A stretch of DNA of 64,000 nucleotides from a bacterium (GCA_022828125.1 JAJEJD010000012.1:319309-383308); one strand, 5' to 3'. Positions 21,001 to 54,012 are shown, counted from the first letter of the stretch. The notes: generated from the sequence alone by a model not told the origin. A program made the numbers and translations.

Positions 21001-21252
21001 CACCCTACTTGTTCTATTCAAGAATTTCAGGGTCTTTCCTTTGAGTATGATATACGAAAAGGCACTTCGATATATACGACTTCATAAGAGGACAGACAGA
21101 CCCTTGGGAGATGACGGTTTGGTTGGAAAGCTTGAACAGGTATTGGGCCGCCTCCTGAAAAAACAGAAACCAGGATGTAACAGAGGACATAAACATAGAT
21201 CATATGGTGTCTACTAGATTTTACACATTGTTCGCTAATGTTGGCCAAAGTG

Positions 21253-22218
21253 ATGTCAGCTAAGCTTTTCTTCTCCTACAGCCACGCCGACGAAGAGTTG
21301 CGTGATCAACTTGAGGTTCATCTCGCCGCCTTAAAGCATCAGGGTCAGATTAATACTTGGCACGACCGTCGTATTGCCCCAGGCGATGACTTCGAAAACG
21401 TGATCTCAGCTGAACTTGAAGACGCCAAGGTTATCTTGTTGTTGATTAGCTCCGATTATATCGCTTCGAGCTATTGTTACGGAATCGAGACTGCACGAGC
21501 ACTCGAACGTCACACAGCGAATGAGGCGCGGGTGATTCCGGTCGTCCTTCGGCCTTGCGATTGGCATAACTTACCTTTCGGAAATCTTCTGGCCCTGCCT
21601 ACCGACGGCAAACCGATAACGCGCTGGGCAAACATTGACGAAGCCTTCCTGAGCGTCGTTCAGGGAATCAAGAAAACCTTGGCTGAACTGGAAACGACTA
21701 GGGCGGACCAGTCTAGTGAGATAAGACAAGCGATACCGTATGCGCCTGGTCCGTCGGAAACACATTCCGGACCGCGTTCTTCCAATCTTCGAGTCGCGAA
21801 GTCCTTCACAGAGCAGGATCGGGATGATTTTCTACACGAAGCCTTCGCATTTCTACTCAATTTCTTCAAAAACTCTCTGGATGAACTTTCCGAAAGAAAT
21901 TCAGGGATCGAAAGTCGCCTTCGCTGCTTAGGCAAAAATCGTTTTACAGCTGCTATCTATCAAGATGGAAGCAAGATCGCATCTTGCACAATCTACATTG
22001 GCCAAGATTTCGGAAACGGTGATATCCGCTATTCTCATGGCGAGCAAGGTGACTCTAATAGCTGGAACGAGAGCATATCGGTCGAGCATGATGACCAGGT
22101 ACTTTTCTTAAAGCCCATGGGATTGATGGCGTTCGGCAGCCATGGAGATCCGAAACTGTCCATGCATGGATGCGCTGAATTCTTGTGGGGCGACTTTATC
22201 CGACCACTCCAAGAATAG
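21253..22218 (+). CDS. TIR domain protein, probable NADase effector
   Basis: This roughly 321-aa protein opens with a bacterial TIR domain (about residues 1-140): KLFFSYSHADEELRDQLEVHL, INTWHDRRIAPGDDF, VILLLISSDYIASSYCYGIE, and IPVVLRPCDW. The Glu in YGIETARAL sits where TIR NADases have their catalytic Glu. The C-terminal half (about 180-321, with CTIYIGQDFGNGDIRYSHGEQGDS) is a domain I do not recognise and may sense the trigger. The ATG at 21253 starts just before the TIR fold; one at 21238 is also possible and neither has a strong site. It stands alone, so it may be a one-gene abortive-infection effector. Confidence 0.85.
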   Translation: MSAKLFFSYSHADEELRDQLEVHLAALKHQGQINTWHDRRIAPGDDFENVISAELEDAKVILLLISSDYIASSYCYGIETARALERHTANEARVIPVVLRPCDWHNLPFGNLLALPTDGKPITRWANIDEAFLSVVQGIKKTLAELETTRADQSSEIRQAIPYAPGPSETHSGPRSSNLRVAKSFTEQDRDDFLHEAFAFLLNFFKNSLDELSERNSGIESRLRCLGKNRFTAAIYQDGSKIASCTIYIGQDFGNGDIRYSHGEQGDSNSWNESISVEHDDQVLFLKPMGLMAFGSHGDPKLSMHGCAEFLWGDFIRPLQE

Positions 22219-36981: not shown

Positions 36982-37941
36982 ATGACTGCCACAGCGACTC
37001 ACGACCACAAGGAGAGCATCATGCACGAGGTTGACAACATCGAAGCGCAGAACGAATCCTTCACCGCCATGGTCTGCGAACAGGCCGCGCTGTTCGGCGC
37101 GACCCCCGGGCCGGACGAGTTCGACAACCGGCCCGTCTGGGGCGAGGCGGAGTCCACCGCCGCAGTCCTCAAGGCCTTCGTCGCACTCGCGGAAGCCGCA
37201 CCCGACGGCACCCAGCTGGCCGACGAGCGGGCGAGTCTCCTGTGGGGCTTCGTCAACACCCTCGACGCCCAGACACAACGGCTCGACCGCGCCGCCGACA
37301 AGCTCATACCCGGCATCCGTGAAATGCAGCGCGAGCAGGACGGCTCCGAGATCAGATCGCGCGAACTCGAACTCGCCACCGACCGGGCCGAGAATCTCAC
37401 CGCCCGACGCGACGCCTTCGAAGGACTGCGCGACACGGCCGCAGAGGCCTACCGCGTCGAGACCGGCGAGGTGTGGCGGCCACGGCGAGGCTCCCACGTT
37501 TCGCAGACCGGCAAGCTCACGTCGGCGGTCATCGAGGCGCGCGACTTCCAGCGTGCGAAAAAGGACCGCGAGAACACGGCCCATCTTCCCCAGGGAACCC
37601 TCGTCGCCGTCGCGGGAGGCAAGGAAGCCACCGACGCCGGCAAGATCATCGGCCAGCTCGACAAGCTGAAAGCCAAGTACGCCGACGTCGTCCTCGTCCA
37701 CGGCGGCGGCCCCGGCGCCGAGAAGGTCGCGGCGGGATGGGCCGAGCGGAACGGCGTCCACCAGATCGTCTGCAAACCCGACTGGGACGCCCACGGCAGG
37801 GCCGCTCCCTTCAGGCGGAACGACGAACTGCTCTCCCTCCTCCCCAAGGGCGTGATCGCGTTCCCGGGTTCGGGCATTACCGACAACCTCGTCGACAAGG
37901 CCCGCACCCTCGGTATCCCCGTGCAACGCGTGGCCGCCTGA
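36982..37941 (+). CDS. DUF2493 (SLOG/YspA-like) protein
   Basis: This 319-aa protein has an N-terminal alpha-helical region (about 1-200) and a C-terminal DUF2493 domain: GTLVAVAGGKEATDAGKI, VVLVHGGGPGAEKVAAGWA, VIAFPGSGITDNLVDKA. This is a Rossmann-like SLOG fold that binds nucleotide-related ligands. DUF2493 proteins of this size are common in ICE cargo blocks; the ligand is unknown. AAAGGAG lies 7 bases before the ATG. It is the last gene of the plus-strand module, followed by a GC-rich hairpin. Confidence 0.87.
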   Translation: MTATATHDHKESIMHEVDNIEAQNESFTAMVCEQAALFGATPGPDEFDNRPVWGEAESTAAVLKAFVALAEAAPDGTQLADERASLLWGFVNTLDAQTQRLDRAADKLIPGIREMQREQDGSEIRSRELELATDRAENLTARRDAFEGLRDTAAEAYRVETGEVWRPRRGSHVSQTGKLTSAVIEARDFQRAKKDRENTAHLPQGTLVAVAGGKEATDAGKIIGQLDKLKAKYADVVLVHGGGPGAEKVAAGWAERNGVHQIVCKPDWDAHGRAAPFRRNDELLSLLPKGVIAFPGSGITDNLVDKARTLGIPVQRVAA

Positions 37942-37955
37942 TGTGAACACTCCTC

Positions 37956-37986
37956 GGGTCGCGTCGCCACCCCGGCGGCGCGGCCC
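37956..37986 (+). terminator. GC-rich hairpin after the module, terminator-like
   Basis: GGGTCGCGTCGCC (37956-37968) pairs with GGCGGCGCGGCCC (37974-37986), mostly Watson-Crick with two wobbles, around a five-base loop. No T run follows, so it may slow rather than fully end transcription. It lies about 15 bases after the DUF2493 stop. Confidence 0.5.
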
Positions 37987-38335
37987 GTCGCTTCCCGTGT
38001 CGTTCGTCTGCTTGTGATTTAAAGCGCGAGTTGCAGCGCCCTGTTCGCCTGCCGCTTGTGAATCCAGGCGCAAGGTTCAGCACTCTCACCCCTCTTGCCC
38101 CTCGCTCTGTCCGCTCAAGCGCCGCGGCGGCTCCCGCTCGCCATTCTCTCCGGCGCCGGTTCCCCCATCTCTCGTTCTCACGAATCCGGCAATCTGACGC
38201 CATTCGGCGCTTCGGGTTTCACACCGGACGCATCGCCGATGCGGGTGTCGCGTGAGCTGCGAATGACTGCGATCTCCTGCGCCTGGTTTTTACGGTTCAT
38301 CCCCCCGCGAACCCCCGTCGTGCCGAAACAAGTAA
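37987..38335. other. Intergenic, no gene recognised
   Basis: No gene is recognised between the hairpin after the DUF2493 gene and the palindromic block ahead of the regulator. The GC content drops across it, which marks the change from the maintenance module to the second defence block. Confidence 0.4.
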
Positions 38336-38488
38336 TACCAATCTGGTGTCACGCTATCTCTTTGAAATACGTGCACTTAAAAATGGCGTATGCTCATTGT
38401 AATACGATGTAATACGGGGATTTCCTGTTTGATACCAGATTGGTAGTACACGGGCGCGCGCTGCGTTATGATGCTACCATTTTGGTAG
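38336..38488. promoter_or_regulatory. Palindromic operator-like block upstream of RHH-like gene
   Basis: TACCAATCTGGT (38336-38347) is the exact reverse complement of ACCAGATTGGTA (38434-38445). CTACCA-TTT-TGGTAG follows at 38474-38488, and a short direct repeat TGTAATACG lies near 38399-38417. Together they resemble operator sites for a small DNA-binding regulator, most simply the ribbon-helix-helix-like protein that starts 130 bases downstream. That pairing is inference. Confidence 0.5.
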
Positions 38489-38619
38489 TTCGTGAAACGG
38501 CGTCGCGGGCACCATTTTTGGGCCCGAGGCGGGTGTGTTTGGTGCAAGAAATGAGAATTTTTGCGGTCGTTTTGCGACTGGAACGGATCAAAATCTTCAC
38601 CATAGGAGCGGCGAAACGG

Positions 38620-38928
38620 ATGGTTCAGACGATACAAAAGAACATCAGGGTCACGCCCGAACAGTGGAAACGGATTGAAAATGAGGCTGAAAAGCGCGAA
38701 ATGTCGCCCAACCGACTCGTGGTTGAACTCGTGATGGAAGCCCTGGAGCGCCGCGAATGGCCCCGAACCGAAGCGGAAATCCACCTCTTACGTTCCGCCA
38801 TGTTCACTGCGCAGGCCATCATCCGCGACATGGAACGAGACGGAAGAGAGAAGGAAATCGAGCAAATCAGCAGGAATATCTCCCAAGTCGCACCGGAATT
38901 GCCGGGCAATTCGGCGAAGAACCTGTAA
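38620..38928 (+). CDS. Ribbon-helix-helix-like DNA-binding protein
   Basis: This 102-aa protein has QKNIRVTPEQWKRIENEAEKREMSPNRLVVELVMEAL at the N-terminus, the strand-helix-helix pattern of Arc/CopG/MobC-type dimers, then a charged helical tail. The ATG at 38620 follows AGGAG by about 11 bases. It could repress its own gene through the palindromes upstream, or act as an accessory relaxosome protein; no relaxase is seen, so a repressor role is favoured. Confidence 0.72.
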   Translation: MVQTIQKNIRVTPEQWKRIENEAEKREMSPNRLVVELVMEALERREWPRTEAEIHLLRSAMFTAQAIIRDMERDGREKEIEQISRNISQVAPELPGNSAKNL

Positions 38929-39118: not shown

Positions 39119-39979
39119 TCATGGTTGAACAGACAGGATGAACTCTTTTTTTATGATTTCTTTTATTTCCTTCACCGGAAAAACACCCAGTTCCTGCCAA
39201 GCTGAGCGAATACCTATGAGCCGCTGAATTCGCCCCAGAATCTTTTCATGAAAAAGATAGTGTTTATCTTCATCATTGATGAAATCTGAAAGCGCCCAGA
39301 TCAGAGCGGTACGGACTTTAGCATCTCCCAAGACAGAATTTCTCGATACAACAAGATTGATTAACCCCTCCCAGTAGGACTGTGAAACAGTCAACACCTT
39401 AATAATATCTATCATTTCCGCATCGGATTGTTCACGAACCTCTTGAGCTATATATCTACGCCACCAAGCGCGCGCGAAAGGACAGTTCACATAGACACTG
39501 CGATTTCCACGAGCTTCCGGTAGACCACTCATCCGCCTCAAAGCCGTGCGGGCAATAATATCGATATCTTTTCCTTCCTTTAACGCTCTGTCTATTCTTT
39601 CTAGTCCCCCTGCCTGTGCTCCACCATTCGCAGCCAAATAAAAGGATTTTATTCTGCCCTTTTCTACATGTCGCAAGGTCATAAAACCCCAGAAGGTCAC
39701 ACGGGACGCATTTGCCGGAGAAATCGATTCCCAAGTATCGAATATCCATTTTTCAGTGCTCTTGGGCGGTTCCTTGAATTCCGACTCAGTGAGCGGTTCC
39801 TCCAGTATAGGAAGGCTTTCACCCTGTTCGATCTTGATGCGAGCCCTGATCCAGTCGGGAAACCTACTGCTGGAGCGTAGGGCATCCAGAAATTCCCTCT
39901 GTTCATTAGAACCTTTTGCCTTGAGGATATTCTTACGTAATTCGGTATAAGAGGCGTCCTCAAACTCTGCGTAAGGCAT
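39119..39979 (-). CDS. Unknown protein, fifth gene of the PAPS/DUF262/GHKL operon
   Basis: This 286-aa protein begins MPYAEFEDASYTELRKNILK; the frame is open further upstream, but GAGG lies just before this ATG and only 4 bases separate it from the previous stop. Trp/Arg-rich stretches (DWIRARIKIEQGE, ARTALRRMSGLPEARGN, FARAWWRRYIAQEV) are notable; these may match DUF6339, though I cannot confirm it. It closes a tightly packed five-gene operon, and the spacing implies a shared function. No catalytic motif is evident. Confidence 0.75.
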   Translation of the reverse strand: MPYAEFEDASYTELRKNILKAKGSNEQREFLDALRSSSRFPDWIRARIKIEQGESLPILEEPLTESEFKEPPKSTEKWIFDTWESISPANASRVTFWGFMTLRHVEKGRIKSFYLAANGGAQAGGLERIDRALKEGKDIDIIARTALRRMSGLPEARGNRSVYVNCPFARAWWRRYIAQEVREQSDAEMIDIIKVLTVSQSYWEGLINLVVSRNSVLGDAKVRTALIWALSDFINDEDKHYLFHEKILGRIQRLIGIRSAWQELGVFPVKEIKEIIKKEFILSVQP

Positions 39980-39983
39980 GCCT

Positions 39984-40826
39984 CTATTCCTCGTCTTCCG
40001 ATTTGAGTGGACAATGAGGGTACCATTGTGTGGCGACCTTATCGGCGGAAAAGCCGTCTTCATCCCAGACAGGAAGTTCGCGTTTTTCGAGCTCATTCGC
40101 CAAGGCTTCCAGATTGCGGAATGACTTCCATTTCGGGGTATCGTCATCATCTTCGTCCGATTCACTGTAATCCCGCGCCAATATCTCAAGACACCTACTT
40201 ACTACGTGTGTCAGCACGCTGCTTCGGTGCTTCGGATGTTCACCAGGATTTTGCAGAAAGGAATATAAATCTGATGCCGCATAGACTTTGAAATAAAAAC
40301 CTTCTTGATCGCATGGTTTGACCTCGAAACAGCCATCACGAAAATCTGGTACTTGCTCGACAGAAAGCAAATGGTGGAGCGAAGATGTCGGGCGCAGATA
40401 GCTTTGTAGAGCGAGGCGCGCTCCTTTTGGAATTGTGATTTCTCTACCTTGCCATGCCTCCGCCACCTCATCTTCCGGCCCCAGCATGCAGGAAATTTCA
40501 GTAACGGATACAACGAGAGGACGTAACATGGGCGGCTCGCCGACTACACCCATATCCCATTCCACTCGCTGGCTTGCTTCATCTGATAAATGCAATCTTC
40601 TGTATCCGGTCAATGGTACTGAAATCAGACAGCCATATTTGGCTTTGCGTCCAGAAATCATACGTTCAAGAAAAGCCGCCCCTTTTATCTTATGATTCAA
40701 AAGCACCGAAACACCGCCTTGTTGTGGTGTTGTTTCAACCTGATATTCGCCATTAGGGTAGGATAAATTACCCTCTTCAATAATCGGGTAGGGAAGAGAT
40801 CGGACGATCCCTCCAACTCGAGCCAT
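39984..40826 (-). CDS. Unknown protein, fourth gene of the operon
   Basis: This 280-aa protein has a beta-rich N-terminal half (PYPIIEEGNLSYPNGEYQVE, LRPLVVSVTEIS), a helical middle and an acidic run (DYSESDEDDDDTPKW) near 225. Its start codon shares one base with the stop of the GHKL ATPase gene, so the two are translationally coupled. No family is recognised. Such coupling suggests it forms a complex with the ATPase. Confidence 0.75.
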   Translation of the reverse strand: MARVGGIVRSLPYPIIEEGNLSYPNGEYQVETTPQQGGVSVLLNHKIKGAAFLERMISGRKAKYGCLISVPLTGYRRLHLSDEASQRVEWDMGVVGEPPMLRPLVVSVTEISCMLGPEDEVAEAWQGREITIPKGARLALQSYLRPTSSLHHLLSVEQVPDFRDGCFEVKPCDQEGFYFKVYAASDLYSFLQNPGEHPKHRSSVLTHVVSRCLEILARDYSESDEDDDDTPKWKSFRNLEALANELEKRELPVWDEDGFSADKVATQWYPHCPLKSEDEE

Positions 40827-42832
40827 TACGATATCTCCTGATTTTGAGAACCGGGGACCCGGCGAATCAACTGTGTCTTCAATACAACCGGCATATCATC
40901 GGGCAGATCTATACCTGTTGGTAATTCATAGTCGAATTCGATCTGGATCATCTTCGTCGGGTCGAGCGAGCCTAGCTTGACGCCAAGTGCGTGGTCTTCT
41001 TGATCATGGGTTAACATAGATTCCGATACAGGCCGATTATCTACTTTCACGTTCTTCAACCTTGCAAATGTTTCAATGCCGAATGCATCACAACTCTCAT
41101 CCAGGCTCTCATCAATTGCGAACCGCACCTCGCTCCCAGCGGCTTTTTCTCCAGGCGCCAGTTCGACACGATAGGCCCGCTTACCAGCAGGAATCGGAAG
41201 CGCGGCAAACTGGATGGCATTGCCCGACCTACGAAAAGTTCCACGTCCTCGTCTGTTTGGGTTGATGCCTCCGCCTTTTCCTTTCTTTTCAGTGGTATCG
41301 TCAGGCCCGGCTCCCCTCTCTGTGTCTTCCCCCTCATCCGCTTCCTTTGTGAAGCGGGGCCGTCTACGTATTTCCTGAAACTGCCCCGCCAGTCCTGGCC
41401 GGCGTCCCCCGGACGAGATTCCATTCGAGTTGATTGCCAGAAAATCTTCTATCTCGAACTCTTGATTTTCTTGTGTTGGGACAACCTCATTTAGTTTGGA
41501 AAACACAGCTTCCAGGGCTTTGTTGAGCGCAGCCCTTTCTTCCTTGAAAAGCCATTTTCCGGCTTCCAAGTGATTGTGCAGCGGACCTTCTGCCTTCCGC
41601 ACCAACCGATGAATTTCGCCGTCGCTCGCATCCAGAAGTATCACGCAATGAAATGGCTTAAAGTCTGTAAACCGGTTCCTTTGAAGTTTAGGCAAATCGT
41701 CCGTGATCCACATACCGTTTCTACAAAGCTCGACTCGTGAAAGGCCACCTTGGGGCAAGGAACGCCATCGCATGTTGATACAGCCGAAATCCGTGTTGAT
41801 CCGAATGTCCTCTCCTTTTTCTATCGTTGCAAAAGCGGCAAGCGCTCTTGAGCCTGACAAGAACCCGCTGCGTGTGCGCTTTTCTGCGCTGAATTGGTCC
41901 AAAATTGAAGCAATGTTCGTTTTATCTAGAATTTTGGTGTCATTGTCTTCTCTGAATTCGACACGTAATTCGCCCTTTGCGAAAGCAGCGAAAAAGTTGC
42001 ACGCCGCGGCTTTCGACACCATGTCCCACAATGAATCGCCGTCTTCACGAAACCGGTTAAATCCAGGTACGACCACTACGGTCCCGGCTCCAGGCTTCCA
42101 AGTTTGAGCAATCCATTCCAGCTTGTTTTTTATGTAGTCGGGAATTTCGCCATTCTCGGGAAACACATAAGGCTCGAAAAGATCAGGCCTGATATTTTTT
42201 ACATAGAATCCATCCTTACTTTTGCGTTCATTACCTTGTTGATGAGAGGCCAGAACCGCGTGTCCTGCCCCGATAATCTCTCCGCTCTCCATACGCCCAC
42301 CATAAAGAACGTAGCGCAGGTCGGACGCAGGCAGAACAGTCAGATGGCCATTGCCGACGGCTCCAGTTCCCGAATCACTTTTCACGCTCAGGCCGTCGGC
42401 GAGCAAGCCCTTCATTCTTTCCTTGTCCAGCCCGATACCGTTATCCAGCACGAAAAGCGTTTCACATTCGCTCGACTCCAAACATTCTCTCATTGCCTCC
42501 ACGATCCCAGTCGCCGTATCTGGAAGCTTGCCTCGTGAAAGTTTTTCTTGGTGATTTACAGCTCGTTCGAATGCTGAACGATAAGACTTGATGCCTGGAA
42601 TTAAGTCTAAATTATGCTTTTGAGTTTCGAACCGGATGATGGTGACGTCACGCCCAGTTTCTCTACCCGCATCCAGAGAATTTTGCAATAGTTCTCTAAT
42701 GACCGTAGCTGGTTTGAGATCATGAAATCCAGCCAAACCTGCGGAGGTGAAACCGGATACATCTCCAGGCCCGAACCGGAGGTCGGGGCGTGCGGGCTGT
42801 TTGGATTTTCTTCGCTTTCGCTTTTTACTCAT
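40826..42832 (-). CDS. GHKL (MORC/Hsp90-like) ATPase, third gene of the operon
   Basis: This 668-aa protein begins MSKKRKRRKSKQ, a very basic tail, then a GHKL ATPase: VIRELLQNSLDAG (N box, about 44-56), LFVLDNGIGLDKE (G1, Asp130), and GTGAVGNGHLTV (G2). MORC and Hsp90-type ATPases dimerise as ATP-driven clamps, often on DNA. GGAGAG lies about 11 bases before this ATG; an in-frame ATG 21 bases earlier overlaps the DUF262 gene and lacks a site. It sits between a DUF262-HNH nuclease-like gene and two coupled unknown genes, so it is probably the motor or clamp of a defence complex. Confidence 0.82.
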   Translation of the reverse strand: MSKKRKRRKSKQPARPDLRFGPGDVSGFTSAGLAGFHDLKPATVIRELLQNSLDAGRETGRDVTIIRFETQKHNLDLIPGIKSYRSAFERAVNHQEKLSRGKLPDTATGIVEAMRECLESSECETLFVLDNGIGLDKERMKGLLADGLSVKSDSGTGAVGNGHLTVLPASDLRYVLYGGRMESGEIIGAGHAVLASHQQGNERKSKDGFYVKNIRPDLFEPYVFPENGEIPDYIKNKLEWIAQTWKPGAGTVVVVPGFNRFREDGDSLWDMVSKAAACNFFAAFAKGELRVEFREDNDTKILDKTNIASILDQFSAEKRTRSGFLSGSRALAAFATIEKGEDIRINTDFGCINMRWRSLPQGGLSRVELCRNGMWITDDLPKLQRNRFTDFKPFHCVILLDASDGEIHRLVRKAEGPLHNHLEAGKWLFKEERAALNKALEAVFSKLNEVVPTQENQEFEIEDFLAINSNGISSGGRRPGLAGQFQEIRRRPRFTKEADEGEDTERGAGPDDTTEKKGKGGGINPNRRGRGTFRRSGNAIQFAALPIPAGKRAYRVELAPGEKAAGSEVRFAIDESLDESCDAFGIETFARLKNVKVDNRPVSESMLTHDQEDHALGVKLGSLDPTKMIQIEFDYELPTGIDLPDDMPVVLKTQLIRRVPGSQNQEIS

Positions 42833-42836
42833 TGGT

Positions 42837-44525
42837 TTATATCTCTCCGTCATTCAACAGCTTTTCAATTCGCGCCATAACCATATCCGCACGCTTCTCC
42901 AAAAACTCTTCGTAGGCTTTCCTCAAGTCTACTCCTGAGTTTTCCTTTATGGCGCTTAGATGCTCTGTTCTTACCAGATGCGTGTTGAGTCGTTTTTTCA
43001 CCTCGGCTCCAGGATTACCGGCAAATTGAGATTCTTGCATAGCTTCCAGAAGAAAATCGCCGGGCCACTTTTTTGCCCACTCCTTCCTGTTTGACGCTGG
43101 AGTTAGCAACATGCAATTTAGAGAAAGATCAGGATTAGCTCCAAGTTTCTTGAGAGTGGCTTTTGGAAAAATATGATGATAATCCCGGTTGTCGCTTTGC
43201 TTCAATACTTCGTTCGTTACGACATCCCTGGCGCCTTTCAAAGAACATGCTACAAGAATGGCTTTGCTTAATATGCCCCTGTTTTTGGGCCATCCTGCGG
43301 TTTTCAAATCCTCTCTGTCAGGTCTTTCGCAGTTGAACGCAGGGACGGAAGTTTCTTTCCTAGTTCCGCACAACACTTGGACCAAGGCGTCATGATCTTC
43401 CTTTAGCCGATCATTCGCCTGTCTCTCATAGCGGTCTGTAAAAAAAGACCACCAAAGATATTTGCGAACAAGGCGCCTTGCTTTCGCATGAGCATGTCCT
43501 GTTTTTGGAATAAGATGGTGAAGCGCGGACAAAACCCGCAAAGGGACAGCGGTCGGCAGTCTGGCGTGGTCCCAGATATGCAATTCGCCAAGTGTTTCGG
43601 TCACCCATTTCATTCCTTCCTCAATTTTACTCCAATTGTCCTGAAGTTTCTTAAAATTGAGGTTACGGTAATTCCCGTAAGTGGGTTTCTTGTTTTCTAA
43701 AACGCACTGTACTTTCAAGACTAGGTCACCAACAGGATTAGATCCTTCAAGCGATTCGATGTTTGGCACTTCTCTTGTTAAATCATCAATTTTTGCCGGC
43801 AAAGATTCTGAAATTTCAGTTTCCATCTGGGCGACCGCAAGCTCGTAATGAGAAAGCCTCACCGCTGACCTGTTCGTTTGAATGAAAATATCAATCGCTT
43901 CATCCGGAGAAGTATTCTGTGGCAATGGCAGATATGGAATGACAGTGTCTATCATCCTTTCTCGCAGTTTCTGAACGAACATGGAAATATCTCGTCTGCT
44001 TTCCGCCTCATCGGGGAAAACGGTTTCGCACCATTCTATTGATTGCTTCACACCTTCTTCTCCTGGCGCGAGAATTTTTACGGGCACCCATCCCTTGGCA
44101 AATTCCTCTTCTGGAACGCCAATTTTTCCTTTGTCACGCCCCTTTTTCGACACTGTTTCGATTTCTGTTTCGTTGAATTTGTCCACCAACTTCTCAAAAG
44201 CTACATAGAAGGTATGATTGTCGTGATTGTCATTGAAACTTCTCCATAAGGCAGTTAGTCGTTGCTGGCCGTCCAGCAAGTGCTGTTTGCATGGCTCTCC
44301 ATTATCCGGCGCGCCCGCAAGAGGGCGTGTTTCGAATGGTTGTTGGCTTGTATCCACTTCAAGCACTAGGAACACTCCCAACGGTCGAGATTTCAATATC
44401 GCTGAGAGAAAATTCCTTACATGCTCAGGCGTCCAGACCTCCTCGCGTTGAAACCTGGGCAACCTTATGGCTCCAAGTTTTACGTCATCCATCCATCTTT
44501 GGATATTTTTAGACCTAGTTTCCAT
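42837..44525 (-). CDS. DUF262-HNH protein (GmrSD/SspE-like), second gene
   Basis: This 562-aa protein has a DUF262 N-terminal domain with LLDGQQRLTALW (Asp85-Gly-Gln-Gln-Arg), the nucleotidase-like signature of GmrS/SspE, and a C-terminal HNH-type nuclease (YHHIFPKATLKKLG, then SLNCMLLTPASNRKEW). GmrSD cleaves modified phage DNA; SspE senses DNA phosphorothioation. Here it follows a PAPS-reductase-like gene by 33 bases and precedes a GHKL ATPase by 4. Active-site residues appear intact. A modification-linked restriction role is plausible but unproven. Confidence 0.88.
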   Translation of the reverse strand: METRSKNIQRWMDDVKLGAIRLPRFQREEVWTPEHVRNFLSAILKSRPLGVFLVLEVDTSQQPFETRPLAGAPDNGEPCKQHLLDGQQRLTALWRSFNDNHDNHTFYVAFEKLVDKFNETEIETVSKKGRDKGKIGVPEEEFAKGWVPVKILAPGEEGVKQSIEWCETVFPDEAESRRDISMFVQKLRERMIDTVIPYLPLPQNTSPDEAIDIFIQTNRSAVRLSHYELAVAQMETEISESLPAKIDDLTREVPNIESLEGSNPVGDLVLKVQCVLENKKPTYGNYRNLNFKKLQDNWSKIEEGMKWVTETLGELHIWDHARLPTAVPLRVLSALHHLIPKTGHAHAKARRLVRKYLWWSFFTDRYERQANDRLKEDHDALVQVLCGTRKETSVPAFNCERPDREDLKTAGWPKNRGILSKAILVACSLKGARDVVTNEVLKQSDNRDYHHIFPKATLKKLGANPDLSLNCMLLTPASNRKEWAKKWPGDFLLEAMQESQFAGNPGAEVKKRLNTHLVRTEHLSAIKENSGVDLRKAYEEFLEKRADMVMARIEKLLNDGEI

Positions 44526-44558
44526 GTATTCTCCCGGGTATCCAGCGAATAGTTCAGA

Positions 44559-45908
44559 TCAATCAGTGCAGTCGCAAGGCAGGATACTGTCCGCAAATTC
44601 GGTGAGGGAATCTTTCTGACTCGGCGCTTCCGCTAGACGCTGGTAGGAAAATGCGCTCTTTGCGCCGAAGAATCCGATAAAATCGTTGGGGATTTCTCGT
44701 TTTATTCGTCGGTTTTCAGCCTTCATGTCTCGGCCATACTTCCGTTCCAGATTTACCCACCATGTCAGATCGCAAGGCGTGTTTTGGAGTTCTTCGTCCA
44801 CAACTGCTCCGAGAGCGATGTGAGCGTTCTGGAGTACCCTTAGACCTTTTAGAAAGCAGTAGGTGCAATTGGAAAGTCCATCCTTGGGATCCAGTTCCAA
44901 GTTCCAGTTTTGCTTTTTCCAGAAATTCTCTACGTCTTTCTTGGTAACATCCATATCGAAAAGCGGCATATAGGCATGTTCGCCTCCATAGCTAGCGGAT
45001 TCCGGCCCACCACTATTACGCTGGCGCACTCTGGCAACCCGGTGCGGCTCGTCCGCCCGAAGTCCGACGAAACTCAGATATTCAACCCCGTCTTCCCCGA
45101 AAACAACACTTTCCCCAAAGACATTTTCATCTAGGTACGAACTTTGGAATTGACGAGCGGGGGATGAGAAATCGGCATATAACTGCGCTGGCCGGCATAT
45201 TGGCCGCTCACGTGCGAATTGCTTTTTGTCCAGAAAGATATCTCTGGGAACCCCACCTCCGTTGCGGAGATGGCGCTCGTACAAATCGTCATCTTCCAAG
45301 CGGCTGCTTTTCCCAAAATGCCCCAAGCGTTCGGTCTGGGGCTTGTTGGCGAACCATTCCTTGAGGAAAGCGCGGGTCGTTTCCAATTTCAAACTCTGCG
45401 TGCAGGTGCGTTGGAAAATAGTTGGAACGAAACCATTCCACGACAAAAGTTCTTCATAGACCTCTCCACGCCAGTGATAGCCGTCCGGATTAGTTTCCGA
45501 CAGGGGTTCTACGTTAACGAGGCGATAAGATGGAAGGCGCGTATATTCGCCGTTTCGGGCGTCTTCATAAGTCTGATATTCCAGCCAGAAAAAGGGGATG
45601 TCATACTTTTTCTCAGCCAATTGCTTGCAGCGGCGAGCGAAGTCATACGTCTTGGGATGTTCCGCCGAAGTGTTGTTGAAGATAACCACATCACCTCGTT
45701 CCGCTTTCAAAAGGCCTGCTTCGAGAAGCGTGAAAAGTAGCATCCCGCTCGTCTGACCTCCCGAAAATTTCATTACGTGCGGAAGTTCATCGTGGTCGGG
45801 GTATTTATATCGAAAACAATGATCTGAATCTGAATCAAGGGAATGACAAGTTGGATTTCTCACAAGATATTGAAATTTTTTTGCATGTTGAATCTCGTAA
45901 TCTCTCAT
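44559..45908 (-). CDS. PAPS-reductase/DndC-like PP-loop protein, first gene
   Basis: This 449-aa protein has the PP-loop SGGQTSGML (49-57), then FNNTSAEHPKTYDF, RTCTQSLK (Cys169), GLRADEPHRV and NCTYCFLKG (Cys348, Cys351). That is the pattern of PAPS reductase/DndC-type ATP pyrophosphatases that may hold an iron-sulfur cluster. DndC and SspD adenylate DNA for phosphorothioation, but no DndD, DndB or cysteine desulfurase is nearby. It leads a minus-strand operon of five genes with gaps of 33, 4, 0 and 4 bases. It may make or recognise a base or sulfur mark for the DUF262 partner. Confidence 0.85.
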   Translation of the reverse strand: MRDYEIQHAKKFQYLVRNPTCHSLDSDSDHCFRYKYPDHDELPHVMKFSGGQTSGMLLFTLLEAGLLKAERGDVVIFNNTSAEHPKTYDFARRCKQLAEKKYDIPFFWLEYQTYEDARNGEYTRLPSYRLVNVEPLSETNPDGYHWRGEVYEELLSWNGFVPTIFQRTCTQSLKLETTRAFLKEWFANKPQTERLGHFGKSSRLEDDDLYERHLRNGGGVPRDIFLDKKQFARERPICRPAQLYADFSSPARQFQSSYLDENVFGESVVFGEDGVEYLSFVGLRADEPHRVARVRQRNSGGPESASYGGEHAYMPLFDMDVTKKDVENFWKKQNWNLELDPKDGLSNCTYCFLKGLRVLQNAHIALGAVVDEELQNTPCDLTWWVNLERKYGRDMKAENRRIKREIPNDFIGFFGAKSAFSYQRLAEAPSQKDSLTEFADSILPCDCTD

Positions 45909-46616: not shown

Positions 46617-47522
46617 ATGGCAACGGTGAAACTTGACGATGTAGACTTGCCCAAAGGCATCCAAAGGATACGTCCTCTTCCAGACCCAGCGCTCGGCATC
46701 CTGTGGGACTCAATCATCCTAGACGAATGCGTGAAGTCGCAACTCCTGTCTCAGGCGGTGTTGAACTTCAAGTTGCGCGGCAAGGTCGATCGCAGTGTGA
46801 TACCTTTGCATGGTGTCATCTTATTGGTTGGACCTCCCGGCACCGGTAAGACTTCACTCGCCCGTGGTTTGGCACATCGGACCGCCGAGTCGTTTCAGAA
46901 AGCCGAGTTCCGCTTGTTAGAGATCGAGCCGCATATGCTGACCAGCTCAGCGATGGGCAAGACGCAACGCGCTGTGTCAGACCTGTTTTCTCAGTCGATT
47001 GCTGAGGCCGCAGTCGACGGGCCGACTATCGTGTTGCTCGACGAAGTCGAGACACTGGCTGCCGACCGTTCAAAGATGAGTCTGGAAGCCAACCCGATTG
47101 ACATACATCGGGCCACCGACGCCGTGCTTGTACAACTCGACATCCTGGCCGAGCAGCACACGAACTTGTTGTTCCTGGCTACCAGCAACTTTCCGCAGGC
47201 AGTCGACAGCGCGTTCACATCTCGGTGCGATCTAATCATGCAAGTGCCGATGCCGGACCGTGAGGCTTGCGGCAGAATTTTGGAGGACTGTCTGAAAGGA
47301 CTCAGCATCAGCTACCCCGCAATCTTGAAACTGTTGGTGGCGCCGGATTTCAAATGTTGCGCCGCCGAATGCGTCGGTCTCGACGGGCGGGCAATCCGCA
47401 AAATGGTGGTCAACGCTCTCGCAAGCAGCCCGCAAACCGCCATGAATCCCGAACTGATCACGGTCGAAAATTTATTAGCCGCCGCACGCGCCGCCAAGGC
47501 AAACCGCGAACAGGGAGTCTAG
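46617..47522 (+). CDS. cap6: CBASS Cap6: TRIP13/Pch2-like AAA+ ATPase
   Basis: This 301-aa AAA+ ATPase has Walker A GPPGTGKT (72-79), Walker B IVLLDEVETL (Asp142, Glu143), a sensor region (LLFLATSNFPQAVD) and Arg-rich SRCDL. It resembles TRIP13, which unfolds HORMA proteins. In type III CBASS this ATPase disassembles the HORMA-CD-NTase complex to switch signalling off. Its place directly before two short genes, a HORMA protein and a CD-NTase confirms the role. It lacks a good ribosome site at the predicted ATG, so the exact start is a little uncertain. Confidence 0.88.
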   Translation: MATVKLDDVDLPKGIQRIRPLPDPALGILWDSIILDECVKSQLLSQAVLNFKLRGKVDRSVIPLHGVILLVGPPGTGKTSLARGLAHRTAESFQKAEFRLLEIEPHMLTSSAMGKTQRAVSDLFSQSIAEAAVDGPTIVLLDEVETLAADRSKMSLEANPIDIHRATDAVLVQLDILAEQHTNLLFLATSNFPQAVDSAFTSRCDLIMQVPMPDREACGRILEDCLKGLSISYPAILKLLVAPDFKCCAAECVGLDGRAIRKMVVNALASSPQTAMNPELITVENLLAAARAAKANREQGV

Positions 47523-47527
47523 ATATC

Positions 47528-48004
47528 ATGAGCACTGTCGCCAGCCGAACCTTTTGCAGCACACCTCAACGCGACGCGTTCCAAACCTGGAGCGCGATAG
47601 TTGACTTGTTAACTCAAGGTAAGACTGGCGCCGCACGGTCGGAACTACTTGCCGTCGCAGGCGTCGCCGCAAGCGTAATCGCAGACCAAGCACCCAAGGG
47701 CGCGGCGATCGTCGTTACTTGTGACGGTCCCCGTACACGCATCTATTGTCTGTATGACGACGACGCCATTGAAGGTTCAGACGCCAAAGAAGACGCCTTG
47801 GGCTTTGATCCGTTAAAGGGCGATTGGCGAGTATCACTTCCCTGCCTGACAGAGGATCTGGCCTGGGTCGAAGATGCGCTAAAGCAGCACAGCACCAGGA
47901 TTACGGCACGCGACATCGCCGCCGCCGTCACGACTAAAGACGCCACCAACGTAAGCAAGACCGAAGGTCTTGTCTTCGATCCGAAAGGGTTTCTCGGTTC
48001 ATGA
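47528..48004 (+). CDS. CBASS accessory protein, possibly second HORMA-like (tentative)
   Basis: This 158-aa protein ([57 protein letters not shown]) lies between the TRIP13-like and HORMA genes and overlaps the latter by four bases. Some type III CBASS operons carry a second, more diverged HORMA or peptide-bearing partner in this position, so this is my assignment, with no clear sequence signature. It starts 6 bases after the previous stop. Confidence 0.6.
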
Positions 48005-48501
48005 CAAACGTCGTCGTTAACACCTACACCCACTCCGTCACCTATGTGGCAGACAACATCCTCAAGAGCTTCAAGGATATTATCCGATTAAGTGGGCTTG
48101 ATCCGAGCAATCTCGTCGCGAGTTGGGAAAGTAATATGCGGGCAATTCGGACTTGGCTCTCCTCGAGGCATCTGGAGACAGTTGTCCTCGAGATCTTCGA
48201 TCCCAAAACCGACGCGCTGGTTGGCCGCTGGGATATCGACGTGGTGTATACAACGGGGATGGGCGACGGTAGTTTCTGGACTGACACCGAACAGATCAAA
48301 TACCACGTGCGCAAGGCTGGGTTGGCACCCAGCGAGGCCAAATATCGCCTATTGCTGCAGAACAAGCCTGGATACCCCCATGTCGATGGATGGGAATCTA
48401 CAACATACCGGTCGACCAATGGCTTTGTGCGGCACAGCCTTGGCTCGACGATAGAGCACAATGGCCTAGGCTGCAGTGCGGCCTACTGGAGGAAGAATTG
48501 A
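48001..48501 (+). CDS. cap7: CBASS Cap7: bacterial HORMA domain protein
   Basis: This 166-aa protein follows the bacterial HORMA pattern: [71 protein letters not shown]. In type III CBASS, HORMA binds a peptide and activates the CD-NTase; the TRIP13-like ATPase resets it. Its ATG overlaps the upstream stop (ATGA), and its stop shares a base with the CD-NTase start, so three proteins are translated in tight coupling. Confidence 0.88.
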
Positions 48502-49400
48502 TGCTTACCATCGATGAAGCCTTTCGCAAGTTCAAGAGCCGGCTCGAACTGAACGAGAAAGAACAGAAGAACGCGTCCGCGCGGCATACGGAAGTGCGCG
48601 ACTATCTCATGGACAAATTCAAGATCGAACGCAGCTTCTTAACTGGGTCCTATGCCCGCTATACCAAGACGAAGCCGCTCAAAGACATTGACATTTTTTT
48701 CGTGCTGAAAGAAGACGAAAAGCACTATCGCTCGGAGGCCCCTTCGGTAGTAATCAGCGACTTCTATGATGCTCTAGTCGAGGAATACGGCAAGGGCGCA
48801 GTCCGCGTTCAGAGCCGCTCGGTTAATGTCGATTTCGGCGTCGTCGTGGACGCCGAGGACAACACTGATTATCACGTCGTTAGCGTAGATGTCGTTCCGG
48901 CATTCGCCGCTGGCGATGATTACACGATTCCCTGTGATGACACTGGCGAATGGATCAAGACTAACCCGGAGATTCACGCGAGTAAGGCCACGGCTGCGCA
49001 TCAGGATTATTCGAATGAATGGAAAGGGCTGGTGCGGATGGTTAAATATTGGAATAACAACGCTCGGCATGGGGAGAAGCCGGTCAAGCCGTCGTTCCTG
49101 ATCGAGGTGATGGCACTCGAGTGCCTCTATGGCGGCTGGCATGGCCGTTTTGATTATGAATTTCAGGGGTTTTTCTCGACCTTGGCCGACCGCATCCTAG
49201 ATGAATGGCCGGACCCTGCGGGCTTGGGGCCTGCCATCAGTGACGGGATGGACGTTGTCCGAAAACAGCGGGCACGTGAATTATTGATGGAGGCGAGCCG
49301 TGACGCAACAATCGCTATCGATCATGCACGGCGCGGACGTAATGGCGAGGGGTTGAAAGCTTGGCGCGCACTCTTCGGCCCGAAGTTTCCGCTTTCGTGA
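48501..49400 (+). CDS. cdn: CBASS CD-NTase (cGAS/DncV-like nucleotidyltransferase)
   Basis: This 299-aa nucleotidyltransferase has [21 protein letters not shown]: Gly49-Ser50 and the Asp62-x-Asp64 metal pair, with a third Asp in VSVDVVPAF (Asp130). The C-terminal part is the usual helical PAP/OAS1-like domain. It makes the cyclic oligonucleotide that activates the SAVED effector downstream. It shares a base with the HORMA stop, so its expression is linked to the regulator. The motif style suggests the CdnC/CdnD group, but the clade is not certain. Confidence 0.93.
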
Positions 49401-49443
49401 AGCGTGAGTGGAATAGCAGCAGCAATGTATGTGGGGATATGTC

Positions 49444-50961
49444 ATGGCTGATGCGGTGATGGCACGCTGGCACGGTGACAACTACCAAGCACGCATCTTC
49501 TGGGAGAACGCATTTAATTTACTGTTGCCACACTCTTGCGTAGTCGAAGTTACTTTTGAGGCAAACGGCCCTAAGGCCTTTGACGATGTAGTCGTCAAAT
49601 ATGATCCGCCAGTCGCCCGCTCCGGTTCCGAGCGTGTATCGGCCGAGTATCATCAAGTCAAATGGCACGTCCAGACGGGCGGTCGGTTTGGATATAAGGA
49701 TTTTATCCACCCCGATTTCATCGGGGCGAAGTCTTTCTCCCTTCTGGAGCGGCTTCAGCAAGCGCGTAGGACGACACCGGCTTCGGCGCATTTCGCTTTC
49801 CTCACGACCTATCGCATCAAGGATGGCGATCCGCTCGCCAAACTGATATCCGGTCACGACAAGACTCTGCTCATCGAACGCCTGTTCGACGGGACCACCG
49901 ACAAGAGCCGTATGGGCAAAATACGAAAGTGCTGGCGGGAACATCTGAAATTGACGAACGACGACGAACTCAAGGCGATCGTACGCGGACTACGCGTACT
50001 TGATGGTCACCGCACTCTCGAAGAGCTTCGGTCCGAGATTAATTTCAGGGCACAAAGCGTTGGAGTGCTGACATGCAACGCCGCTGACTCCGATTTTCGA
50101 TACGACGAGTTGGCGCGCCAGTTGAAAGTGCGCCAGTTGAACACACTGAACCGTGAGGCGTTTTTGCAATTCTGTCACGACGAAGGGCTACTAGTCGAAC
50201 GCGGGGTAGAGCCTGATTCGTTTTTGCCAATCGCGATTCGCAGCTTTCTTGGGCCAGCGGCCGACATCGTCGGTGCAACGCCAGAACACACATTGTTGCT
50301 CACGGACGATTTTAGGCACCGCTATTTGCAAGATGATCTCGAATGGCAACGTGACATCCGACCCAAAGTCGAGACATTCTTGCGGGCAGCAGTGAGGAAG
50401 TGCACGAGATTGCGCCTCATTCTGGACGCACACGCCTCTATTGCGTTTCTTGCCGGCGCGGTGCTGAATTTGAAATCAGGTGTTCAGACGGAGCTTGTTC
50501 AGAAGGGCCGTGTAGGCACCAGAACTTGGCGGGCTGACGATGAATCTGCTGCTAGAGGCACGCGCTTCGAGATTGTCGATGACGAAATTGGAAAGGGCCG
50601 TAACATCGCGGTCGCAATCAGTGTTTCGCAGCCCACGACGGCACAAGCGCAGGCATACGTCACGGAGCGACTGCCCAATGTGGGGAAGCTGATTTCCTTC
50701 GATATGCCTACCGGGCCGGGTCAACAAAACGTCGTCGGTGGCGAACACGCCGCGGCCCTCGCTGAACAGGTATCCAATCATGTTCGAGAGGTGAGGGTGA
50801 ATGACCTTGATGCTATAGTCCATATTTTCGCAGCGTGTCCGAACAGTCTTTTGTTCTTTCTTGGCCAGTACCACCAAGCCATTGCGCCCTGCATCGTCTA
50901 CGAGTTCGATTTTGACAGGCAGGCACACAAGACGTACCAACCATCATTTATAATTGATTAG
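49444..50961 (+). CDS. cap4: CBASS Cap4-like effector: nuclease-SAVED protein
   Basis: This 505-aa protein has an N-terminal nuclease-like domain (about 1-200) with KAFDDVVVKYD and YHQVKWHV, a D...Q-x-K pattern of Cap4-type PD-(D/E)XK nucleases. The C-terminal half is a SAVED domain: NIAVAISVSQPTTAQAQAYV, VHIFAACPNSLLFFLGQ, CIVYEFDFDRQ. SAVED binds the CD-NTase product and triggers DNA cutting. The ATG at 49444 is preferred to one at 49429, though neither has a strong site. It is the last operon gene, 43 bases after the CD-NTase. Confidence 0.9.
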   Translation: MADAVMARWHGDNYQARIFWENAFNLLLPHSCVVEVTFEANGPKAFDDVVVKYDPPVARSGSERVSAEYHQVKWHVQTGGRFGYKDFIHPDFIGAKSFSLLERLQQARRTTPASAHFAFLTTYRIKDGDPLAKLISGHDKTLLIERLFDGTTDKSRMGKIRKCWREHLKLTNDDELKAIVRGLRVLDGHRTLEELRSEINFRAQSVGVLTCNAADSDFRYDELARQLKVRQLNTLNREAFLQFCHDEGLLVERGVEPDSFLPIAIRSFLGPAADIVGATPEHTLLLTDDFRHRYLQDDLEWQRDIRPKVETFLRAAVRKCTRLRLILDAHASIAFLAGAVLNLKSGVQTELVQKGRVGTRTWRADDESAARGTRFEIVDDEIGKGRNIAVAISVSQPTTAQAQAYVTERLPNVGKLISFDMPTGPGQQNVVGGEHAAALAEQVSNHVREVRVNDLDAIVHIFAACPNSLLFFLGQYHQAIAPCIVYEFDFDRQAHKTYQPSFIID

Positions 50962-51495: not shown

Positions 51496-52926
51496 ATGAC
51501 CAGCGAGCAAATCGCAAGGATGGTTGTGGCGGGCGAATCCGCAACGCTGGAATTCAAGAGTACGACGGGAACACGTCGGGAGGCAGTGATGACCGTATGC
51601 GCCATGCTCAATCAGCAGGGTGGGCACGTCTTGTTCGGCGTCACGCCCCAGGGTGATGTAGTCGGGCAGCAAGTGAATGAACGAACCATTGAGGAACTAA
51701 GCGCCGAGATCGGGAGGATCGATCCGCCGGCCTTTCCGACGATTGAGCGGATTCCAGTGACACAAGAACAAGAGATCATCGTCGTAGCCGTGAATCCGGG
51801 ACCGGCTAGACCGTACCAATATCGGGGCGCTTCTTACCGCCGAGTTGGAAACACGACCCTCGCAATGCCGACCGAAGAGTACAACCGAGTGCTTCTGGAG
51901 CGAATGCATAGTGAACAACGCTGGGAGAACCAGCCTGCCATCGGGTGGTCGATCCAGGACCTCGACGAAGCGGAAATCCGGCGAACCGTAGAAAATGCGA
52001 TCCGGCGGGGTCGGCTGGATGACCCTGGAACCCGAGAGCCGGCCGAATTGCTGCGCGGCCTCGGATTGTTCAGGGGCGGGGTTCTGTGTCGTGCGGCGGT
52101 CGTGCTCTTCGGCAATACCGAGCGCATCGAATATGAAATGCCGCAATGCCTGCTCCGCGTCGCCCGGTTCCAGGGCACAGACCGCACGGAGTTCCTGGAC
52201 AACCGGCAGTTTCACGGCAACACATTCTCGCTTCTCAAGGCAGCTGAGAGTTTCTTGCGCCAGACCCTGCCTATTGCAGGTCGGATCGAAGCGGGTCGCT
52301 TCGAGAGGATCGACGAGCCGCTTTTCCCACCCCTCGCTACGCGCGAGGCGTTGGCGAATGCGCTCTGCCATCGCGATTATTCGGTCGGCGGCGGGTCCGT
52401 CGGTGTGGCGGTCTACGATGACCGCCTCGAAATCACATCATCCGGTGCGCTTCATTTCGGATTAACGCCGGAGAAGCTGTTCGCGCCACATGAGTCCCTG
52501 CCCTGGAATCCATTGATTGCTCGCACGTTTTTCCGGTGCGGCATCATTGAGCAGTGGGGCCGGGGAACCTTGAAAATGGCGGAATTGACGGCCTCTGCCG
52601 GTTTGCCCTCTCCCGAGATCGAAGACGTAGGCGGATGCGTGACGGTGCGCTTTCGACATGATAAAACTCCGGTGCGTCTGGCAGCGGAGCCACGCGCGAC
52701 CGGTTGGCGAATGATGGACGATCCAGACTCGCGGCAGCAGGCGATTCTCGATTTGCTATACCACGCGGACCGCCCATTGGCGCTACGTGAAATCCGTGCC
52801 CAGTTACCGCCTTCGGTAAGCGCTCGTCAGTTGAAAAGGGCGTTGGCTCGACTGAAGGAGCGTGGGCTCGCAGCATCCACAGGACGCGGCGTTTCCGCGC
52901 GATGGAAACACATTCAACGACAATAG
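51496..52926 (+). CDS. AlbA_2/HATPase_c_4 transcriptional regulator-like protein
   Basis: This 476-aa protein has an N-terminal AlbA_2 (Schlafen-like) domain: GESATLEFKSTTGTRREAV, GGHVLFGVTPQGDVVG. The middle is a HATPase_c_4-like domain (ATREALANALCHRDYSVG, LEITSSGALHFGLTPEKLF, QWGRGTLKMAELTASAG) and a winged-helix-like end (REIRAQLPPSVSARQLKRALARLKERGLAAS). These proteins are often called RecG-like regulators or helicases, though no helicase motifs are present. It may sense DNA or phage and regulate local genes. Confidence 0.87.
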   Translation: MTSEQIARMVVAGESATLEFKSTTGTRREAVMTVCAMLNQQGGHVLFGVTPQGDVVGQQVNERTIEELSAEIGRIDPPAFPTIERIPVTQEQEIIVVAVNPGPARPYQYRGASYRRVGNTTLAMPTEEYNRVLLERMHSEQRWENQPAIGWSIQDLDEAEIRRTVENAIRRGRLDDPGTREPAELLRGLGLFRGGVLCRAAVVLFGNTERIEYEMPQCLLRVARFQGTDRTEFLDNRQFHGNTFSLLKAAESFLRQTLPIAGRIEAGRFERIDEPLFPPLATREALANALCHRDYSVGGGSVGVAVYDDRLEITSSGALHFGLTPEKLFAPHESLPWNPLIARTFFRCGIIEQWGRGTLKMAELTASAGLPSPEIEDVGGCVTVRFRHDKTPVRLAAEPRATGWRMMDDPDSRQQAILDLLYHADRPLALREIRAQLPPSVSARQLKRALARLKERGLAASTGRGVSARWKHIQRQ

Positions 52927-53166: not shown

Positions 53167-54012
53167 CTACTTCGCCCGATTGCCAGACAGTGATTTAACC
53201 AGTTTGTGAGAACGTGTCACAATGAAATTGCTTTGTCTAAAGATCGCTTCGTTTAATTTCCGAATATGCTCAGTATCGGTGATGGAGAACAGTCGTTCGT
53301 TCTTGGGCAATAGACCCGGCGTCACTATCACGTCATGAGAAATCGGAAATAGAAGTTCTACTTCAGGGTTGTCCAATCTGGCGGATCCCAGAGGAGAGCG
53401 AATCCTTATAAACGGATTATCGCCCATGACGAAACTCTTGTTGGGATTTGTAATCACAGCAACGGCAAGCCCCTTGCTCCGGAGCAAATCCATCAATTGT
53501 CCTTTGGGCTGTGGAATAATTTTTACCCATGCATTGTGCGTGAGTTCCCTTTGCAGTTCTGGGTCTGCATATTTCCTGCGGACAGAATCAGTAAGAGGGC
53601 GTACCTCACGCTCAAACCCAGCCAGTGTGTCCCAAATAATTTCTGCATCTGGTAGCAATGCACGTGATGTCGGAAGCCTCCTTAATTGACAACAGAAAAA
53701 TTCGTCCCATCTCCTCTTTTCCGATTGCGTCAATCCCGGCTCTTCTCCTAGACGGGCCGCTTCTACAATCTTCTTGACTACCGGAGTGACTGGACCTTCT
53801 ATAGAGGATGACAGCTCCCGTTCAACTGAGAAATCTTTACCGCCATGTTCGTCATACTGCGTATAGAGATGGGATTTAACAAAAATTTTCCTCGGATTTG
53901 ATCTGAATATCTTACCGAACTCTTTGGAAAAACAGTGTAGCTGTCCTTTCACGTCGGTGAAATTCCGTAAAATCATTTGCGGGATATAATGGTGCCGAAT
54001 GGGTATATCCAT
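53167..54012 (-). CDS. DUF4238 domain protein
   Basis: This 281-aa protein fits DUF4238: RHHYIPQMILRNFTD near the start, LHCFSKEFGKIFR, VMGDNPFIRIRSP, LFPISHDVIVTPG. The HHYIPQ motif resembles a divergent nuclease-like Asp/His fold often found in defence contexts, but no activity is established. The frame begins 9 bases after the 68-aa gene, so the two are likely co-transcribed. Confidence 0.9.
   Translation of the reverse strand: MDIPIRHHYIPQMILRNFTDVKGQLHCFSKEFGKIFRSNPRKIFVKSHLYTQYDEHGGKDFSVERELSSSIEGPVTPVVKKIVEAARLGEEPGLTQSEKRRWDEFFCCQLRRLPTSRALLPDAEIIWDTLAGFEREVRPLTDSVRRKYADPELQRELTHNAWVKIIPQPKGQLMDLLRSKGLAVAVITNPNKSFVMGDNPFIRIRSPLGSARLDNPEVELLFPISHDVIVTPGLLPKNERLFSITDTEHIRKLNEAIFRQSNFIVTRSHKLVKSLSGNRAK

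Follow-up and report, generated by a model that had tools for sequence, protein, structure and literature searches.

A predicted modular restriction-modification operon joining an SspD-like PP-loop protein to DUF262-HNH and GHKL-based candidate effectors

A five-gene operon occupies positions 39119-45908 (minus strand) of a 64,000-nucleotide stretch of bacterial DNA, referred to here as the window, which is part of a 3.9 Mb genome. On the evidence of sequence comparison, we consider it probable that this operon encodes a modular restriction-modification system in which sulfur, most plausibly a DNA phosphorothioate, serves as the self mark, and which employs two separable effectors.

Organization and surroundings of the operon

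All five ORFs are intact and collinear. The first gene (44559..45908) encodes a PP-loop protein of the PAPS-reductase fold (449 aa), an SspD relative and the proposed DNA sulfur-modification enzyme. It is followed by a 33-base gap (44526..44558) and by the gene for a DUF262-HNH NTPase-nuclease of the GmrSD superfamily (42837..44525; 562 aa), proposed as effector 1. The remaining genes encode a GHKL (MORC/MutL-like) ATPase corresponding to PDC-M33A (40826..42832), PDC-M33B (39984..40826; 280 aa), and PDC-M33C, a divergent DUF6339 protein (39119..39979; 286 aa), proposed as subunits A, B and C, respectively, of effector 2 (M33ABC). The longest ORF of the GHKL gene starts at 42853, and homologues aligned to it begin at the second ATG, residue 8; the gene start is probably 42832. 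The inter-gene spacings are 33, 4, -1 and 4 bases, essentially those given in a first-pass annotation of this DNA, except that the third is a 1-base overlap and not 0. The same annotation had treated the five genes as a unit, a view borne out by the intact ORFs and by the recurrence of their order, far beyond chance, in four loci from other phyla or classes. GC content falls from about 0.64-0.72 over most of the 24-38 kb region to 0.47-0.50 across the operon, which fits an acquired island. Scans for promoters (14 promoter-like sequences, against 8.3 +/- 3.3 in shuffles) and terminators (6 terminator-like sequences, against 7.8 in shuffles) were uninformative.

A complete type III CBASS adjoins the operon on the plus strand (46617-50961), comprising TRIP13, two HORMA proteins, a CD-NTase and a SAVED-PDDEXK effector. 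An AbiU-like protein (16362-18404, minus strand; E=3e-122) and a ThsB-like TIR protein (21238-22218, plus strand; E=5e-122) are also encoded, so that the window is rich in defence genes. It further contains a Schlafen-AlbA_2 protein with HATPase_c_4 (51496-52926), a DUF4238 protein (53167-54012), and a 1372-aa HTH protein weakly resembling PD-Lambda-4_A (54360-58478). The downstream flank of the operon, with NikA-like and YAcAr genes, is common to the window (36982-38928) and to locus L006 of a same-genus genome (11127-12988); the upstream flank differs, being CBASS in the window and, as judged by eye, an AbiE-like pair in L006.

The PP-loop protein and its sulfur donor

The Pfam PAPS_reduct profile matches the window PP-loop protein weakly (E=0.0075). 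When PADLOC models were compared with seven aligned members of the family, SspD and BrxP each matched all seven and DndC five; the best match was to SspD (2.6e-10), and that to BrxP was weak. In hhalign comparisons the family profile matched six SspD proteins at 97% (E=1e-10) and DndC proteins at only 1.5% (E=0.03), the former set being proteins from DUF4007 loci and the latter proteins from DndE loci. Five cysteines are invariant in eight family members, namely C169 (RxCT), C348-x2-C351, and C445-x-C447 at the extreme C-terminus, and the family has in common with SspD the motifs RxCT (RWCT in SspD) and CxxCF and the C-terminal cysteine pair. A sequence-profile search of the PDB with the PP-loop protein gave no meaningful match. 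By profile and motif comparison, the PP-loop protein is thus a relative of SspD and not of DndC, which places its predicted chemistry in a known phosphorothioation group. The earlier proposal that it could write or read a sulfur or base mark can therefore be narrowed to a probable sulfur chemistry of the SspD kind. In CysH-type enzymes a C-terminal cysteine takes part in catalysis; the C-terminal cysteine pair of the PP-loop protein may carry sulfur, and the sequence that it has in excess of SspD may bind DNA.

PP-loop enzymes acting with cysteine desulfurases also thiolate tRNA, and DNA as the sulfur target is a prediction. Sulfur might consequently be delivered to RNA or to a small target, as in tRNA thiolation, with an abortive or RNA-based defence and no DNA mark. 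We give this explanation little credence, since the closest relatives of the PP-loop protein, SspD and BrxP, belong to DNA phosphorothioation systems, and its partners are a member of the DUF262-HNH DNase family and a module otherwise paired with DNA methyltransferases.

In loci L011, L012, L013 and L014 a cysteine desulfurase gene lies between the PP-loop and DUF262-HNH genes, and it occupies the same site in L039; the corresponding gap holds no such gene in the window, and none is found there in L010. The operon-encoded cysteine desulfurases retain the PLP lysine motif and the catalytic-cysteine loop in six of six cases (GSAC in five, GSSC in L013). Accordingly, the first-pass statement that no cysteine desulfurase is present is limited to the window, because homologous operons carry one. 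The window's genome contains two other full-length cysteine desulfurases with 42-43% identity to the operon enzyme, and housekeeping enzymes are known to stand in for a dedicated cysteine desulfurase in phosphorothioation systems (PMC12839542); the sulfur donor of the window operon is probably such a housekeeping enzyme. The cysteine desulfurase of another locus, L030, groups in the tree with a housekeeping copy (support 97/98), which makes its membership in the operon uncertain; it could be a chance neighbour.

The DUF262-HNH protein and the comparison with Ssp and Dnd

The second protein matches PF03235 (GmrSD_N) with E=1e-19, and its alignment shows intact RFQR, DGQQR, FxxxN and HHIFP motifs together with N470/N479 of the His-Me site, following the published GmrSD/DUF262 motif definition (PMC12137116). 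With both the motifs and the His-Me nuclease residues present, it belongs to the GmrSD/DUF262-HNH restriction enzymes, in agreement with the initial family call. Among PDB entries it matches the DUF262 protein 7p9k best, and the nearest PADLOC model is HEC-05. It has the superfamily and the motifs in common with SspE-like proteins, to which there is only a short profile match, and the family HMM did not match two large SspE-like DUF262 proteins adjoining SspBCD.

The known phosphorothioation systems work with either SspB and SspC or DndD and DndE, including a scanning ATPase. SspB (DUF4007) was found in none of the five genomes carrying the PP-loop family and exceeded the cut-off in 10 of the 376 sampled genomes; DndE was likewise found in none of the five (over the cut-off in 6/376). 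DndD gave nothing over its curated cut-off, and no SspC gene lies inside the operon. Canonical Dnd was rejected, given the lack of a DndD match over the cut-off, the failure to find DndE, and a PP-loop protein that is not DndC-like; canonical Ssp was rejected because SspB was not found in the five genomes. The earlier statement that the operon is neither Dnd nor Ssp therefore stands for Dnd and agrees with the SspB result, and it needs amending in that the modifier, as an SspD relative, is of Ssp type.

The operon could also be a divergent Ssp system in which SspB and SspC lie elsewhere or are unrecognisable and an SspD/SspE-like pair stands beside an unrelated restriction trio. The SspD-type enzyme and the SspA-like cysteine desulfurase would suit such an arrangement, as would the occurrence of a canonical Ssp locus (L062) in a same-genus genome (G002). 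We nevertheless regard it as very improbable: a search with positive controls turned up DUF4007 in none of the five genomes, the HMM of the DUF262-HNH family fails to match SspE-like proteins, and the collinear conservation of the genes argues against the trio being unrelated. Locus L062 itself comprises a cysteine desulfurase, SspB, SspC, SspD and a 767-aa DUF262 SspE-like protein, indicating that sister genomes use different sulfur systems.

The GHKL-based M33ABC trio

Genes 3 to 5 match, in order, the PADLOC models PDC-M33A (1.4e-23), M33B (6e-9) and M33C (0.0016, weak), and the aligned family members matched in 10/10, 8/8 and 8/8 cases, respectively. The assignment of the window M33C, weak when taken alone, is thus supported by gene order and by the family-wide matches. 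The two genes first listed as unknowns, together with the GHKL gene, therefore correspond to an unnamed PADLOC candidate.

In M33A the GHKL motifs N, G1 and G2 are all complete and do not vary among ten homologues; the protein gives weak profile matches to MORC3/PMS2. The M33B model is beta-rich with C-terminal helices and of low confidence, with scattered beta-sandwich matches at a TM of about 0.2; that of M33C is a confident all-alpha fold for which the PDB structure search returned no significant match. Nor did M33B and M33C give a meaningful match when their sequence profiles were searched against the PDB, and no nuclease was recognised in either protein when the predicted structures were compared with the PDB, suggesting that M33ABC might act as a non-cutting clamp.

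Seven loci without the sulfur genes (L008, L009, L028, L029, L031, L033 and L041) have M33ABC beside the gene for a Dcm-type, 5-cytosine DNA methyltransferase, and four of them (L008, L028, L033 and L041) also carry a Vsr-like gene. In the M33A tree, the seven sulfur-type proteins fall on one side of a branch with support 100/99; as they form one clade, a single swap of the mark suffices to account for them. Two genomes, G112 and G170, each hold one sulfur-type and one Dcm-type locus.

GHKL genes were also seen in other settings. In L059, L060 and L063 the SspBCD genes precede those for an HKD-type nuclease, an SF2 helicase and a GHKL ATPase, and in L064 they precede a GHKL gene only, identities beyond SspB and SspD having been assigned from motifs by eye; GHKL effectors may thus accompany phosphorothioation more widely. 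In G006, a genome of the window's genus, locus L032 combines Dcm and Vsr with a distant M33-like A/B/C trio and, by eye, a Z1-type helicase-like protein, a possible link to the MORC operons of Iyer 2008.

Distribution and separability of the modules

When GTDB genomes were scanned with the PP-loop alignment as sole query, five loci were recovered. The collinear order PP-loop / cysteine desulfurase / DUF262-HNH / M33A / M33B / M33C is found in L011 and L014 (Gammaproteobacteria), L012 (Ca. Entotheonella) and L013 (a Hyphomicrobiales MAG), so that the five families proposed for the window do co-occur in conserved order elsewhere. Among named relatives carrying the operon, the nearest is the Nitrospinota MAG SB0662_bin_51 (L010); we take MAGs so named to be sponge-derived. 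The hosts are bacteria only distantly related to one another and for the most part uncultured; most of the loci come from MAGs. Among the 376 sampled genomes, five contain the PP-loop family and four of these also M33A, adjacent to the PP-loop gene, an overlap expected by chance with P of about 7e-7, or 8e-4 without the window's genus; the sample, however, is of modest size and in part built around the window. When the search was extended phylum-wide around G201 and G170, no further members came up. Plasmids and phages gave no match to the P0003 query; in viral-contig scans, P0003 alone and PP-loop gave no match, and only two M33 loci appeared, one of them with Dcm and Vsr.

Two further loci break the six-gene set apart. 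L030 has the order PP-loop / M33A / M33B / M33C / cysteine desulfurase and lacks DUF262, and L039 consists of PP-loop / cysteine desulfurase / DUF262-HNH followed by opposite-strand genes, without M33ABC; its genome (G201, whose place in the searched sample is inferred) gave no PDC-M33A match. DUF262-HNH and M33ABC thus each occur without the other beside the PP-loop gene and constitute two separable modules. It had been suggested that a MORC-like clamp gates the DUF262-HNH cut; a MORC-like GHKL protein is indeed present, and since its gene belongs to a separable trio, such gating is not required.

Gene damage was confined to the effectors. DUF262 carries a frameshift in L010 and is interrupted by a transposase in L012, and M33A has an internal stop in L029 and is split in L033; no PP-loop or Dcm gene was broken in any locus read. 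Restriction-modification would be expected to show damage in this direction, with the reservation that frameshifts in MAGs can be assembly errors.

These loci bear on the possibility that M33ABC is modification machinery, in which the GHKL clamp and its two partners would scan and open DNA for the PP-loop protein in place of SspB/SspC or DndD/DndE, leaving DUF262-HNH as the sole effector. SspB and DndE were not found, known phosphorothioation relies on a scanning ATPase, no nuclease is visible in M33B or M33C, and DndDE has been argued to be a core of this type that recruits phosphorothioate or methyl marks (PMC10853773). However, the sulfur pair and DUF262-HNH occur without M33ABC in L039, and M33ABC occurs without DUF262 in L030; Dcm methyltransferases, which adjoin M33ABC elsewhere, are not expected to need a scanner, and the Dcm gene is intact in L029 and L033, where M33A is broken. 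A modifying role for M33ABC thus appears unlikely.

Proposed mechanism

We favour a restriction-modification system with two effectors. This reading builds on the observed gene content and order, the separability of the modules, their family membership, the single origin of sulfur-type M33A, and the undetected SspB and DndE; each of the biochemical steps is a proposal. A cysteine desulfurase, operon-encoded in the relatives, would pass sulfur to the SspD-like PP-loop protein, which would activate DNA with ATP and insert the sulfur, probably as a backbone phosphorothioate. As in SspE/GmrSD, the NTPase domain of the DUF262-HNH protein may sense the mark and its HNH domain nick DNA; the mark may switch the protein on or hold it in check, as happens with SspE. 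DNA without the host mark would be the target of M33ABC, working either as a clamp or through a nuclease so far unrecognised. With SspB and DndE undetected, the PP-loop enzyme would either work without the usual scanning apparatus or use M33ABC, and L039 speaks for the former.

The defence-rich surroundings of the operon are consistent with this reading. Against it stand the lack of an own cysteine desulfurase in the window operon, the rarity of a family known mostly from MAGs (5/376 genomes), the need of known phosphorothioation for SspB with SspC or DndD with DndE, and the failure to recognise a nuclease in M33ABC, which leaves the L030 operon without any. A more specific version is possible, although we hold it with less than even confidence: a two-protein DNA sulfur modifier (SspD-like PP-loop protein and cysteine desulfurase), dispensing with SspB/SspC or DndD/DndE, would have taken the place of the cytosine methyltransferase in a GHKL-based restriction module, creating a family of restriction-modification systems in which a methyl mark and a sulfur mark can be exchanged.

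Relation to known systems

The operon resembles Ssp in its SspD-type PP-loop enzyme, in the NifS/IscS-type cysteine desulfurase, in a proposed DUF262-HNH effector from the superfamily of SspE, and in a single modification module that would serve two effectors, alternatively or additively, an arrangement reported for SspE and SspFGH (PMC8092258). A single Ssp module serves two effectors additively, SspE sensing phosphorothioate and SspFGH, described as Walker-A and FtsK-like, attacking DNA that lacks it (PMC8092258); by analogy, the two-effector layout of the operon is the same as that of Ssp with SspE and SspFGH. In contrast to Ssp, the hosts have no detectable SspB or DndE, the PP-loop protein has 449 aa against about 280 aa for SspD, the DUF262-HNH protein appears to belong to a subfamily other than the SspE-like one, and the second effector is M33ABC instead of SspFGH. 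Type 4 BREX likewise has a PAPS reductase and a cysteine desulfurase in place of a methyltransferase (PMC12839542), whereas the operon lacks BrxC, PglZ, BrxL and DUF4007 and its second module is the GHKL trio.

Genes 3 to 5 are divergent homologues, in the same order, of PADLOC's PDC-M33. Compared with PDC-M33 beside Dcm/Vsr, the operon carries the PP-loop and cysteine desulfurase genes instead, plus DUF262-HNH, and sulfur-type M33A forms its own clade. Prokaryotic MORC/paraMORC operons also place a GHKL ATPase with Dcm and Vsr (Iyer 2008, PMC2292703), but the operon has no helicase, and its MORC likeness comes from GHKL motifs, weak profile matches and the context of its relatives. Iyer 2008 does not mention PAPS, desulfurase, phosphorothioate or DUF262, and does not describe the sulfur-type operon. 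A core that pairs with a sulfur or a methyl mark is also seen in DndDE with cytosine methylases, where the DndDE core recruits either phosphorothioate or methyl marks (Rakesh 2024, PMC10853773); here, by comparison, GHKL-based M33ABC forms the shared core; DndE was not found, and no DndD match passed the curated cut-off.

In the literature searched, which included few subscription papers and no bioRxiv, no paper names the gene set of this operon, an absence that is not proof. The suggestion of a new defence operon largely survives, with the qualifications that three of its genes are already PDC-M33, that the modifier is of Ssp type and that the fuller set comprises six genes; that no named system has this set agrees with the same literature, genes 3-5 being already in PADLOC as an unnamed candidate. 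The methyl-to-sulfur swap itself was already known from DndDE systems and type 4 BREX. The novelty lies in the combination of a GHKL-based chassis with an SspD-type enzyme and no detectable SspB or DndE.

Implications

If the proposed reading is correct, a known family of sulfur-tagging enzymes is joined here to an anti-virus module that elsewhere lies beside DNA methylation genes. DNA phosphorothioation would then be possible with fewer proteins than in Dnd and Ssp, and a minimal DNA sulfuration chemistry would become directly testable. The unnamed three-gene candidate PDC-M33 would be an effector for which the chemical nature of the mark is immaterial, and the operon would join DndDE and BREX as another instance in which methyl and sulfur marks have been exchanged on a single restriction chassis.
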